DNA of 64,000 nt from Xiphophorus maculatus (taxonomy: Eukaryota > Chordata > Actinopteri > Cyprinodontiformes > Poeciliidae). Each line of letters opens with the position of its first letter. Within the stretch, counting starts at the first letter, position 1. Below, one piece after another: positions 1-52,390 of this stretch. The position numbers and the translations under genes are program-made. Below the pieces are notes generated by a model. That model did not search any database. It worked only from the letters and a program-made list of their open reading frames with translations, and was not told the origin of the DNA. The stretch is from positions 11,880,996 through 11,944,995 of the forward strand of contig NC_036457.1 in assembly GCF_002775205.1 (NCBI RefSeq), read 5' to 3'.

Positions 1-2573
1 AAAATACAAATATCTTGAAATCACTTTTTGTTTAAAGGACAAGGAAGAAATAAAAAACATGCCAGTCAGGCCTAATGAATTACCACTTAAAACTGAAACT
101 TATTACAGATGTGATTACCAAAGCTAAACTCAATCTGTCACATGATCTTTATAATTAATTGTAGGCTCTATAAATAGCTGCAAAACAAATTGTGTGATTC
201 CTGGTTCTAAGTCATTTTCGCCACATGTAGATGTGTGAATGCATCAACTTAATTGGTGGATTTTTACATTTGAGTTAAGCATTTGAAGAGGTGTATCTAA
301 TAATGTCTTTGCACAACTGTGTTGGGTGTTGGCATTTTCATTTGTTGAGTTATGAATGGCCTGAGGTGAGAAGCGATTTATCCTTATGAGTTTATGATAG
401 AAATGTTTTTCTTACATGCGCTGTCGTTTTTTCTTTACTGCAGAAATTCCTTCCGGGTCAATGCTTCTGTGTTTTTCTGTGTATCTTTCCTGGCCAGAAG
501 CATTGACTTTGTGTAGTCTCTTTATTTTTTCTTAACATAGAAAGTATTCCTGGCTAAGTGCTTTGTCACTTCTTTGCTCAAGAGGAAGAATTGCTGATTT
601 GTCAACGATTCAGTTACATCGCCTTCCTTTCATAAGCAACTTTTTACCCCTCGGCTTTAAATTATACAATTAAATTAATTTGACTATGCAATGTTATCTT
701 TAGGATGGGTTCAGACTGTATTTGTTATGATTACATCTTTAGATTGTATTGGTATTGAATTTCACAGTTTTGAATTGAATCCAAATTCTGATTTTGTTAA
801 CAAATTGTCTTGGAAATTACTTCCAGGTGGCATTCTCTTATTAATTAGTGCTAATAAACCAAATTGAACTTCATTGCCCTAATGTGAAGTAATTTACAGT
901 GCATCATTATGAGATATGTCTTATAACTACACTATCACTTTTCTCAGCCTAGTGGTGGAAGTAGGTTTCTATGAATTTGTAATGTGTAGATAAAATACAC
1001 AATAAGGATCCCAGTTATATGATTAGTTTTGATTTTGGTTTCTTTCTTTTTATTGTCTTTTTTTTTTTACAATGCAAATAATGTGAATGAAGCACAAGCA
1101 CTCACAAAGACTCACAAAGAAGTCTCACTGAAATGTCTGAAATGTAAAGCTAAAGGTATGCAGGTAACCCGGGACCCTGTAGGCACAAAGGTGTGATTTT
1201 CATTTTAGGAATATGTCTAAGCCTGTACACAACTTCAAAAACAGACTGCTGCCGCCTGCGGTCGTTTCTTTTTGTGTTTTCATAAATAAAGTCAACATTC
1301 AAGGTTGAGACAATGTGGGGCAGTGACGCCAGACCTTTGCATATAGTCTGGCATTTTTGCATACAAGCAACTTTTTTTGTAAAGGGCAAACAATCTGGGA
1401 ACATCAACCTTAACCCATTTATCTGATTAACATCAACATACCAGTCTTTTCATCTTTCTTATATAATAATCTTTCAGCATTAACAATAGGGAAGAGGTTG
1501 ATAGCTCCCCTTCATACTCTTGTCATTATTTCTGAATCTGTTTATGCTTTAAAATATTGTGCAAACTGTACATCATCACTATGTAATCCCTTGATCCGAA
1601 CAGGTTTAAGTCAGCTGATGCGGTGCTGTGAATACTTGGCTTGGTGAGACAGAAGTAGGCTGATCTCAAACTCTTTCTCCGTATTGGACCTTTCACAAAA
1701 CACACAGAGGCGACAAAAAGATGCCTTAGACTTGTCTTTGGTGAAAGTTTTATTAATGGCAGCAAAGGTTGCATCAACGGCTTTTTATAGGACATAAGCA
1801 CAACATCTAAGCATAGAAGTGCCTGTTGAAACAAAATTAATTTCAACAGTAAAAACCAAATAGCTTACACATGGTAAATGGCAATCCAGAAAAATACACA
1901 GCTAAACACAAAAGCAACGAGCTAGCATTTTACGAGAAGGAAAAACAAGCAAAAGCTCTTCCACTGATTTTGTCATGAAAGAAACTATGTTAAACATAAA
2001 ATCATTCAGCCAATCATCTTTCTAACAGAAAGACATAACAGAGTGGTAAGGTAAAGTTGCACCAATAACTGCAAAGCATTCATAATGACAACTAGAGAAA
2101 GGAAAGCCTGCAGAGTGAAGAAAGAAAATGTATAAGTACTGCTGCAGCCAAAGCTCAGTGCATAATTATAAAAGAAGTGTCAGCAGCACTGACAAAGTAA
2201 TTAAGCTGTCTTTCAAGCCTTTTGCTGAGGGAGATCAATCCTGCCTTTTTATTTTATGACTTTGTGTATAATGAAAACAAAATTAATTTCAGAGTTCAAG
2301 ATTGCTATCTGTCACAGTATGTTTTTTTTCACAATAAGATGTCAACTTACAGACAGATCTAGTCTAACATGTTTCTCAGCATATTTGTGTTTATACAGCA
2401 GAACCACTTTGTACAGTTCAGTCTGTACATGTTTTTTTTCCATTTTAATAAGACGAAATAAAATTTCAAAGAGAACAAAAAAATAAAAGCAGGCAAATGG
2501 AAAGTAAATAGTGTTACTGTCTTCGGCACCTTTTTTTCCGGTTTTGTCCTCCAGCCCCTATTCCCCTGAGGAG

Positions 2574-2617
<44 letters not shown>

Positions 2618-2900
2618 TTTAGGAAAAATAATTTTGAGGTTTTACTTTCAGGACAAAAATTTCTCTTAAACTATTTAACAGCAGACAAAACTCACAATCA
2701 AATTTCTTATAACCACACCACTGGATAGTCTTCGTGTGCAGCATTTACCTCAAGGGCTCAAAGCTGAATCGCAGCCAACCTCCATCATGAACATCCATTC
2801 ATCATTGTGACATGTCACGGTTTATCTTCTCTATTGCATTTTGTTCTTTCATGAGGCGTCACTGTCCCCATGAAAGAAACATGTGGTTTTGATTTACTCT
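1..2900. other. Upstream flank without a recognised gene
   Basis: No open frame here looks like a conserved protein, and no splice-consistent exons were found. The stretch is AT-rich single-copy-like DNA with one trinucleotide microsatellite near 2,580. It forms the 5' flank of the deaminase-like gene that starts at 3175. The longest minus-strand frames (about 1,150-1,850) have no recognisable motif and are probably chance. Confidence 0.5.
2576..2617. repeat. (TTA)n microsatellite
   Basis: About fourteen tandem TTA units, uninterrupted. Simple sequence repeat with no sign of function. Confidence 0.95.
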
Positions 2901-2910
2901 TTCTGCATGG

Positions 2911-2935
2911 AGTAAGGTGAACTATTCACCTTACT
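2911..2935. repeat. Perfect 11-bp inverted repeat just upstream of a TATA box
   Basis: Arms at 2911-2921 and 2925-2935 are perfect reverse complements around a 3-nt centre. The right arm ends one base before a TATA-like element, so this could be a palindromic promoter operator or simply another member of the window-wide set of short-loop palindromes. Confidence 0.8.
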
Positions 2936-2936
2936 C

Positions 2937-2943
2937 TATAAAA
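2937..2943 (+). promoter_or_regulatory. TATA box of the deaminase-like gene
   Basis: A TATAAAA element lies about 235 bases upstream of the first in-frame ATG of the deaminase-like gene. Transcription would be expected to start near 2,965-2,975, giving a leader of about 200 nt without an intron. A TATA promoter suits an inducible gene. Loose GAAA repeats near 2,871-2,880 resemble half of an interferon-response element but do not meet the full consensus, so inducibility is only inferred. Confidence 0.5.
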
Positions 2944-3174
2944 ACAGGGCCACCACGCAGAGATGATAAAAGTGTGGTTGAGACAAACTCATGGAGTGAC
3001 TATTGAAACAGTTTCCAGAATGTTTTTGTAGGACTGTGAGTGTTCATAAGAGGTGGAGCTTTGGGCTGGGGGAAGCAAAGTAATGAGCATAGCTGTCACT
3101 TCATTTAGCAGAAGTCCGGGAAGCGACTCAGCGTTCGCAAGCAGCAAGAGAACCTGAGAGTAAAACTTCAATAG

Positions 3175-6100
3175 ATGAAGAGCAGCATGGACATTCCCAT
3201 GTGAGTAACCTAAATATCTGAGTTTAGTAAAACAATAGATCTGTCTTTGTAATATTTATGCTGAAATAGCCCTTAACTCTTCTAATCTTCGCTTTCACCT
3301 CTGTCCTCTTGTCAGCCCACAGCCCTGTTGGCATAATTTAAGACTTTCTGAACATTTTCTTCTCGCCGGCTCTGTTCATCGAAATTACATGTGTGTTTTC
3401 ATCCAGGTTTAGTCGTAAGCGGCATCTGATATTTGGATGTAATGATCAGCTTCCACTCCGTAGGAGAAAATGCCTGATGGACTGGTCAGACTCAGCTGAA
3501 CATTCAGACAGACTGATGTGAGTACACTCTAATCTGAATATGCGGTGAAAAACTGTTTTCATTGTGTGTTTGTTGGACGGTGTGGTGCATTTTTGTCAGA
3601 AAAACAGGATTTATGAAACTTTATGACAGACAGTTTACCACTCAAGTTAATTTAATGTAGTTTAAAAGTAGGAGAATACAGTATGATGTTATCATAATCA
3701 TGGGAAGTCAATATCCAGCGTTCCAGTTCTATAATTGTGACATTAACATCTAAAACCATCAGATAGAAACCTCCATATTACCTAATTGCAGAAATATTAT
3801 AATATTTTCATTCCTATTGATTTAGAAAAAGAATTGGAACATTCCTTGATGCATGGAGATAATGGGTACAAATAAAGAAACTATTTTATTTCTTTGAAAT
3901 TATTCAAAATGGGTATGTTTAAGGCTACATTATGTTTTGTTTTATGTACTTCTGTTTTAAATAAGCAAAGCTTAGCCTAAATGATTTTACTTGAGACCAA
4001 CTTATTGACTAAACCAGTATACAACTGTCTTCGTCCTCACCTTTAAATAAATATCCCGACACCATTTTGCTGACTTCATTTAGGCAGATGTTTTCACTTA
4101 CGTCTGCTGCTCTGAGAGCGGAAGCGAGCTGATGAATTTTCTAAGATGTGGCCAACGAGGAACATGGTTTCCTGCAAAATTACTTTTACCCCATGATTTT
4201 TCTTTTCACCTTTCGTCATTTTACAGTCATAAAAGTCTTAAGTCACTCACTTAAGACTTTAATGGAGGTCTTAAGTGAGTGACCAAGCTAAAGGGGGTGG
4301 AGAACATTTGTGGATGTCAGTTTTTTTAAAGTTTCAACACAGATTCTTGACTGGGTTTCAGTCTGAGCTTGTCTTAACCATTCTGACATGTGAATATGCT
4401 TTGATATATACATGTGGGTTTCAAACCCCAGGAGCCATTTGCAAGGCATCTTATGAGTTTGTGGCAATTTTTCTTTTCTGATCCCATGCACAAAAAGTGA
4501 GCGCTAGTATTTGTTTGCATTTTTAAAGCCATATTTGGATGCATCTATGTACTGAGGTCAGGTGCAAGCTTTTTTGAAACTTTATGTGTAATTATGCATC
4601 ATAAACATGCATGTAAAAAACCAGTAGGCATAATACAAACTATCAACTAACTAATCATTTAGTGATTAAATAAAAAACAAAAAAGAGAAACTGATGTTTA
4701 CATATAAAACACAAATAATAATGAAAGGCATTTATTAAATAAATTATGAAATCTTCATATTTAGCCTGAAAGTTGTGGGACTCAATAAAATGTTTGAAAA
4801 ATAGAATCAAGTCATTCATTATGTATTCCAAGTACATTTTTTGTGCAATTCAACAGAAACAGTATGTCGCTGTATTCTAAGGTTGAGACACTTTTTTGAA
4901 ATACAGTCACTCTGTCATGTGTTGTTTGTGGCTGACTGTAGACACACATGCAGAACAGCAGAAGTGTGCAGGTGATGATGAAAATATTTAATGAAGTGAT
5001 GAGAAACAAAAAAACAAACTCACAAAATCTACAGGAGGCCTGGGTAGAAAATAAATCATAAATCCGAGGATATAACTGGGGGACTCATGGGGCAGAGAGA
5101 CAAACAGGAAGTAACTGGAGGAACAAACAAGTCATGACTGAGAAAGAGGTGAATAAATACTGCGAGGTAAAGTGTTTGAACAAAGAGCTGAGCTGGAGAG
5201 TACACTGGAAAACAGGAAATAAATTTAACACTAAAGAATAACTATACTGAATAAACAATTAAACTAGAGGTACTAAGAATAACTAGAACAAATAAACAAA
5301 ACTAGAAAGACTAAGAAGGACTGAACTAAAGAAGAGCCAAAACAAGACTAAACTAATCAGAAAATACACTAAGGAACACAGAATAATGAAATAAATCAAA
5401 TTCCAAAACAACTGAACAAACTGGGATCCTGACGAACAATATCCAAATCAATTCAACAAAGTATTTTAATTTGCAACCCTTTTATTTTATGGAGGGTAAC
5501 AGTAATACAATCTGCCCAAATTTTAATTAGCTTCAATTATCACTACTTCCTGGTTTGTTTATTGCAGCAAACTGTCTCTACTGTGAAAGTGTCTTCAGGG
5601 GTTTAATGCATTCAGTTGTTTGATAAATCCCGTAGACCGTGATCCCTGCACAGTTTTAGGTGGTTGATCTTCAATCTTTTAGCCATGTTAGTGTGAACTC
5701 CAAGTCTTTTTAAAATCTTTGAAGACAGTGAAAGGCATGTGGAGTATCTGTGGCATTAAAGTAGTACGTAATAGGATCACTCAGCACCGCATAGGTGCTG
5801 AGTGATTGATGTAACTACACCCTAATATTTACAGCAGCAGGCAGGGTGTGCCTTCTCATCATGCAGTAGAACAACCTGCACATTAACTACAAATGCATAA
5901 AAACAAAAGATAACAGAAAAATTAAAAAACTGATAAATGCCAGGTAATTTCAGTTGCAGCAGCAGGTCCTCCTTTTCTAACATAGCCCTTATTAACTAAC
6001 CATTTGGCTCATAACAAAAACTCCCACTGGTTTTTCGTGATGAAGTTTGTTTCATAATTTTCTCTATTGTACCTCAGTTGCCTTTACAGGTTTGTTTATG

Positions 6101-7563
6101 CTGAAATTAATTTGCACACAGTTGGACCGAGTTTTGGATGAGTTGGATTTTATTTTTGATTTATTTGGATATAGGGGACCAAATACATGCGAATGCCTAC
6201 AACGCATTTTAGATCTGGAACAATCATCTTTAATCTGAAATGTAGTTTTTTTATGAGGTTAGCAATGTTTAATTGGCAGCTTAGGAGACATAAAATGGTT
6301 TGATGTAAGTAAAAAACAGATTGCACCCAAAGAAGGAACGCTCTGACTAACTCAGCAAGAAAAATATGCTGATAAATAAGCTTCAGGCCAACTGATAAAA
6401 TCGTTGAATAAATTACTATTTTGTTTTTCAGGACAAGCAGTACTTCCACTTGGTTGTTCGACTCATGTGTGAACAGGTGGAAGATCAGTCACAAGAACAC
6501 ATTGGAGCTATTGGAGCTGACGCGTCTCTGGGCCGACGCAGAAAGTTCTGTGCAGAAAGTTTTAGAGTGTCTCAAAACCAAACGGGGCGACGTCTTCCTA
6601 GACCACTTGGTGAACAGCAAGTTTCTAGCCTTTCACAGAGACATCACGGATGAATATGGCAGGGAAGACAAGCAGCACTCGTGGGCGGTCATCGAAAAAC
6701 AGGAAGAGGTCATTATGTATGGGCCTTATTATCCTAACTACAACAGCGGAGAACACAGCGAGGACATCATCATTACACAAACTCAAGAGCTTCTGGAGGC
6801 AGAGGACTTCCCGCAAGGCTGGACAGTGTATATTTTCACCATGAACAGTCCTTGTTTGGCAAGAAATTCGGACCCATGCATGCTAAACCTCGTTCATTGG
6901 GCCCGAGACTGGTGGAGCATGTTTGCAGTTAAGACTTATATAGGCTATGTGAGAAGTTGGGGCTTTAAAGGAAACAAAGAAAATGTTTTTAAGGAACTCA
7001 ATTACAGACAAGTGGAAATGATAACTCAAAGTGTGGACTATGGGAGCTACGTTGAATTAATTGATAAGATCGATGATCTCAGTCCTTTATGTGAAACTGT
7101 GTTTATTGTTGCTAAGGACTTACTGAAAGGTGAGAAGCTCAACATTCCTTTGATAACCACAGAAGAAAAACAGGAACATAAGAGTTACTTCAAAAATATG
7201 AACAGTATACTTGAGTCCAAACAGGAAGAGGAGAAAAAACTCCTTATAAAGGAGCTGAATGCATTTGCGGAAGCAGCAGAGCCCTTGCTTTTAGGTGAAA
7301 ATCAAGGCTTAGAGGACCATTTGGAGAAAGGAAAGGTGTTTTCACTCAGTTACAATTTCAGCTCAGAGGTATGTGAAGGCCTCCAGGAAGAAATGAGAGT
7401 CAGGTTTCAACAGTGCTGGAGGGAGACAGTACAGGACAGGTGTGCGGAGTTTGTCAGGGAAAAGCTGACTGATGAGTTTAATCAACTCACTGTTCGGCTT
7501 TTTGTTGAGGACTTTCACAGGCTTACACAAGCATATTTGCAAATCGGAAAATTGAAGTTTTAA
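3175..7563 (+). CDS. AID/APOBEC-like zinc-dependent deaminase candidate, 3 exons, 422 aa
   Basis: Coding exons are 3175-3200, 3407-3517 and 6432-7563. Each junction has AG/GTGAGT-type signals, and both introns split an ATG codon after two bases, so the frame is continuous. An ATG at 3187 is an alternative start. The deaminase signature is a His-x-Glu at H154/E156 in a Gly-Glu-His-Ser-Glu context, then a helix, a strand ending FTMNSPC, and Pro-Cys at 186-187 with a second Cys at 195. This is the zinc-binding HxE...PCx(n)C layout, with nucleophilic water activation by E156. The FT..SPC strand echoes AID/APOBEC. The second cysteine spacing (seven residues) is longer than the usual two to four. 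A tryptophan-rich helix and a further strand follow, then a charged helical tail of about 200 residues. I see no signal peptide or membrane segment. The substrate (DNA, RNA or nucleoside) cannot be told. It is not AID or APOBEC1-4 by sequence; it may belong to the extra fish deaminase clades (NAD/SNAD type). Intron 2 (2.9 kb) holds repeat debris. Confidence 0.7.
4232..4283. repeat. Nested perfect inverted repeats
   Basis: Two overlapping palindromes share one arm. The 12-bp arms 4232-4243 and 4249-4260 have a 5-nt loop, and the 16-bp arms 4242-4257 and 4268-4283 have a 10-nt loop. One segment therefore exists in three alternating orientations, as expected from two successive strand-switch events. 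It lies in intron 2 of the deaminase-like gene. Confidence 0.85.
4955..5480. mobile_element. A-rich interspersed repeat relic
   Basis: The segment is rich in short ACTAA/ACTAGA-type units and aligned AAACAGGA motifs of the kind seen in decayed, dispersed teleost elements. It has no coding capacity and no clear terminal repeats. Family not identified; repetitiveness is inferred from style and needs a repeat-library match. Confidence 0.35.
5776..5806. repeat. 13-bp perfect inverted repeat, 5-nt loop
   Basis: Arms 5776-5788 and 5794-5806 are exact reverse complements. Located in intron 2 of the deaminase-like gene. Confidence 0.85.
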
Positions 7564-9870: not shown

Positions 9871-16611
<6,741 letters not shown>

Positions 16612-16861
16612 ATCCCCACGAGCTGGTCATCCGTGGAGGTAAATCTGGAGAAGCCTGCAAATCACCGCAATGCGCGCTATCTGGCTTATTAACGCCGCTG
16701 TCCTGGTTCAGATCTGATCTGCTGACGTCCAGCGAAGCGACCACTTTATTGAGAAAATTAAAATCGGTCTGAAGGCAGGAAGACGATAGGCTGCATGAGA
16801 GAGGAGGAGGAGGTGGAGGAAGAGACTATCCAACTAAATCAAGATCCAGCTGTTATCTGCT

Positions 16862-38420: not shown

Positions 38421-52390
<13,970 letters not shown>

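Follow-up and report, generated by a model that had tools for sequence, protein, structure and literature searches.

The window, by which we mean the whole stretch of 64,000 nucleotides analysed here (G000:C15:11880996-11944995), carries on its plus strand a gene of three exons, 3175-3200, 3407-3517 and 6432-7563, which together encode a 422-aa product in one open frame. The start ATG lies at 3175 and the stop codon ends at 7563. Donors AT/GTGAGT are found after 3200 and 3517, acceptor CAGs end at 3406 and 6431, and an ATG codon is split by both introns. The features of the locus are:

2937..2943, plus strand: TATA-box-like TATAAAA, candidate core promoter (motif scan, weak)
3175..3200, plus strand: predicted exon 1, start at 3175, or at 3187 in a better context (splice consensus, frame)
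3407..3517, plus strand: predicted exon 2, 111 nt, encoding a basic stretch with a bipartite-NLS-like pattern (protein residues 12-29)
6432..7563, plus strand: exon 3, SNAD3 domain and stop codon (PF18749, E 1.6e-139)
6754..6762, plus strand: H154-S155-E156, predicted zinc ligand and catalytic glutamate (H154A -4.8, E156A -3.3 bits against PF18749)
6850..6879, plus strand: P186-C187-x7-C195, predicted zinc cysteines (C187A -5.1, C195A -5.1 bits against PF18749)

Coordinates, splice sites and open frame all reproduce the phase-consistent three-exon model proposed earlier from the letters of this DNA (hereafter the sequence-only reading), which had also pointed out the split ATG at both introns. 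Among the four donor combinations tried, this model was the one in frame, and the other three hit many stops. Exon 3, inside a 383-codon open frame and free of stops, matched the SNAD3 family (PF18749) on its own with an E of 1.6e-139, and is beyond chance. Predicted exons 1 (26 nt) and 2 (111 nt) are weaker: they are based on splice consensus and frame, and have no homology support, the Pfam match starting at residue 55 and the exon 2/3 junction falling at codon 46. This is the point that could speak for gene decay or for an error of gene prediction, an explanation that we regard as extremely improbable given the open frame of exon 3 and a family match that runs through to the last position. 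Exon 3 contains no complete Met codon ahead of residue 141; for the whole domain to be made, translation must therefore begin in an upstream exon. Two ATGs are found in exon 1, in the contexts CAATAG/ATGA (3175) and AGCAGC/ATGG (3187). By the usual start-context rule, the second is the better one, and the product may therefore be 418 aa long.

Exons of a GATA-family transcription factor, perhaps GATA4-like, lie at 12254-16626 on the minus strand, convergent with SNAD3 (Pfam GATA-N, E 5.3e-59; GATA zinc finger, E 5.3e-15). The open frame 9871-10332 looks by eye like a GATA C-terminal exon, but Pfam finds nothing convincing in it (best E 0.11). Exon-like open frames of a further gene were seen at 48627-51142 on the plus strand; three peptides from them, one of which was approximate at its start, were searched with Pfam at E up to 1 and matched nothing. 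Upstream of the window, at a distance of about 4-10 kb, an LTR-retroelement with gag-like and pol-like long frames, recognised by eye, occupies the minus strand (L016:431-5667).

Searched with Pfam, the whole 422-aa protein matched PF18749 with an E of 1.4e-139 and 465.9 bits (residues 55-417 on model positions 19-379 of 379), above the curated cut-off of 27 bits. Its two pieces matched separately, the N-terminal one with 285.8 bits and the C-terminal one (158 residues) with 165.4 bits. SNAD1 came as a weak second match, under its cut-off (E 0.036 with the whole protein, 0.079 with a fragment). We conclude, with a probability of about 0.9, that the gene is SNAD3 of ray-finned fish, a member of the AID/APOBEC-like zinc-dependent deaminase group, related to the AID/APOBEC enzymes known for antibody mutation and antiviral action. 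The sequence-only reading was right to see an intact deaminase gene of AID/APOBEC type that belongs to a poorly studied extra clade, apart from AID and APOBEC1-4, and the clade can now be named. SNAD3 is traced to Krishnan et al. 2018 (as cited in PMC11004436), and is confined to ray-finned fish according to PMC11004436 and PMC8201067. The family is already catalogued, though understudied, and the present gene is a real, intact member of it.

Several other candidates were rejected. T4 RNA ligase, the only other Pfam listing, was at chance level (E 0.46), a search of NCBIfam gave a single match under cut-off (PAS-box, E 0.061), and solved structures searched with the exon 3 sequence gave one chance match (E 1.1). 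As to a viral, phage or prokaryotic origin, no match was found in phages or viral_contigs, and none of 11 pattern matches in genome_contigs encoded a relative.

The motif residues H154-S-E156, P186-C187 and C195 are found in the 422-aa translation where they had been announced. To weigh them, nine single-alanine copies of the fragment 47-300 (254 aa) were scored against PF18749, the wild type giving 323.8 bits. Scores fell to 319.0 for H154A (-4.8), 320.5 for E156A (-3.3), and 318.7 for both C187A and C195A (-5.1 each). Among the controls, C58A (323.2, -0.6), C92A (324.4, +0.6) and H201A (321.7, -2.1) stand next to H128A (318.9, -4.9) and C266A (320.5, -3.3), so that, outside the motif, H128 equals H154 in conservation and C266 equals E156. 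All four motif residues thus fall on positions that the profile conserves; since two controls cost as much as motif residues, the probe reports conservation, not catalysis. The weak SNAD1 match, listed at E up to 1, disappeared with H154A, E156A and C187A and was kept in the other six copies, including C195A; the SNAD1 alignment on the wild-type fragment stops before C195.

Loss of C195 being as costly as that of C187, the C-x7-C spacing is most likely, at the level of the profile, a SNAD3 trait, rather than the oddity for which the seven-residue gap had been taken. More generally, what was thought peculiar to this gene in its cysteine spacing and in its N- and C-terminal parts lies mostly inside the SNAD3 profile (residues 55-417). 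The long C-terminal region is recognised by itself, with the score given above, and of the N-terminal part of about 130 residues, only the first 54 or so are outside the profile, and the remainder is inside. Most of what looked unusual in the architecture thus belongs to the family.

In the AID/APOBEC family, a His and two Cys hold the zinc, and a Glu shuttles a proton in cytosine deamination, as described in PMC11004436. By analogy, H154, C187 and C195 of SNAD3 would bind a zinc ion and E156 would move the proton, so that the enzyme would turn cytosine into uracil in single-stranded nucleic acid; this deamination would serve innate defence. We consider this catalytic mechanism probable; zinc binding, fold, catalysis, substrate and immune role are all inferred. 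Single-sequence AlphaFold yielded no usable model (pLDDT of 33.4 for exon 3, and 38.7 for the core fragment). For SNADs in general, catalytic activity and function are reported as not established in the relevant parts of PMC11004436 and PMC8201067.

Relatives were then looked for in the assembly (704 Mb, 101 contigs). SNAD3 gave one match over cut-off among the matches listed; two more matches, with E of 1.61 and 2.23, were under cut-off and were rejected as further copies. For SNAD1 (PF18744), 5 matches were found at E up to 1 among the matches listed, 4 of them over cut-off, and these four genes form a cluster on contig C5, at 7.53-7.57 Mb (loci L011-L014). They are close paralogues (78-94% identity to the first of the four), and score 53.2-60.7 bits against SNAD1, with SNAD2, SNAD4, NAD1 and APOBEC2 weaker; one of the four, at 26.7 bits, is just over the SNAD2 cut-off as well. 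The SNAD2 search at E up to 0.1 pointed to 2 places among the matches listed, both on these C5 genes. With APOBEC_N, 6 of the matches listed had an E of up to 1 and 5 of these passed the cut-off, at one place on contig C1 and one on contig C3. The four SNAD1-like frames read H-A-E, 28 residues, P-C-x3-C, where SNAD3 reads H-S-E, 29 residues, P-C-x7-C. A profile comparison of SNAD3 with the four placed HxE on HxE and SPC on SPC, at a non-significant P of 0.11. This weak resemblance beyond the motif, together with the wider cysteine spacing, would fit a non-catalytic descendant of the deaminase fold, keeping only structure or nucleic acid binding. Such a descendant is improbable, as all four motif residues are present and occupy conserved positions of the SNAD3 profile.

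The odd point of this SNAD3 is that, despite the family name of "secreted", a secretion signal was found neither in the model nor in a plus-strand scan of ∼26 kb. SNADs are characterised by a signal peptide in the description given by PMC11004436, which also counts it in 26 of 38 SNAD1 proteins; as only these 26 have it, its absence is compatible with SNAD membership. In the three-exon model, no 11-mer starting in residues 1-60 averages more than 0.79 in hydropathy. We scanned for signal exons, taken as frames that open with an ATG, contain a hydrophobic stretch and are followed by a consensus-like donor; this donor must be of phase 2 to suit exon 3. The positive control gave a phase-2-donor candidate in 4 of 4 SNAD1 loci, a score that is not made of independent cases, since these loci are close paralogues. 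On the plus strand, window positions 1-6431 gave a single candidate, at 916, whose phase-0 donor misfits exon 3, and the phase-2 filter left none in a further 19.5 kb upstream. A first scan of the window, under stricter settings, had turned up 10 ATG frames of hydrophobic character, and no consensus donor of phase 2 went with any of them. On the opposite strand, the phase-2 scan gave 7 entries, some of them nested, in the upstream stretch L016, another 2 in L017, and none in the part that belongs to the window. As the scan readily lists such chance frames, its silence on the plus strand carries information without being proof: it would overlook a signal interrupted by an intron, an exon with a weak donor, or one lying further away.

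It follows from this silence that SNAD3 may act inside the cell, exons 1 and 2 being predicted. The predicted N-terminal peptide fits the bipartite nuclear-signal pattern, as do 4.6% of its shuffles and 17 of the 611 46-mers taken from open frames of the window, which makes it a weak indication. A fuller proposal, tentative and rather unlikely, is that of an intracellular, perhaps nuclear deaminase, which would have lost the signal peptide and gained a basic, bipartite-NLS-like exon; equipped with a wide zinc loop and a helical C-terminus, it would have returned to AID/APOBEC3-like work. What competes with it, leaving the identity of SNAD3 aside, is that the protein is secreted like its relatives and that its signal-peptide first exon was missed, exons 1-2 being wrong or an alternative start. 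We hold this to be a serious possibility, somewhat short of even odds: it agrees with the description of SNADs and with the signal-like first exons of the four SNAD1 loci of the same assembly, and a missed secretory exon is conceivable where the predicted exons have no homology support, but it has against it the hydropathy of residues 1-60 and the empty plus-strand scan.

The promoter region was examined over 1.5 kb upstream of SNAD3. TATA-like motifs, counted on both strands, gave 3 matches for 0.76 expected (shuffle fraction 0.04). The ISRE, GAS and kB patterns gave 0 matches each (expected 0.24, 1.49 and 0.03), and a looser IRF pattern gave 1 for 0.62 expected. Interferon or NF-kB control is thus not retained, no such element standing out in this 1.5 kb.

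A single SNAD3 match, among the matches listed, beside AID/APOBEC and SNAD1 genes in the same assembly makes a tractable target. If it is true that SNAD3 has no signal peptide, the "secreted" label of the clade would be questioned, and intracellular work would be pointed to.

Compared to the AID/APOBEC family (PF08210), SNAD3 has the same zinc deaminase motif, from family knowledge and from what PMC11004436 describes, but differs from the canonical PCx2-4C given there by its C-x7-C, and its protein was not listed against APOBEC_N at E up to 10, a range where HMMER filters drop most matches above 0.1. With the four C5 genes of SNAD1 it shares the HxE...SPC...C motif and the deaminase group, whereas they have C-x3-C, a signal-like first exon and deaminase-exon frames that measure 230-260 aa and lack the long C-terminal region of SNAD3. 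Shark SNAD1 is described in plasma in the relevant part of PMC9207270, where an antiviral action after uptake by cells is suggested, and SNAD3 would differ from it if intracellular; in carp, snad1 expression is stage-dependent according to the corresponding part of PMC13402138. Finally, the present gene may differ from known SNAD3 by its signal peptide, none having been found here, and is the same in its match to PF18749, which runs from position 19 to the end at 379 with the motif residues at conserved positions.
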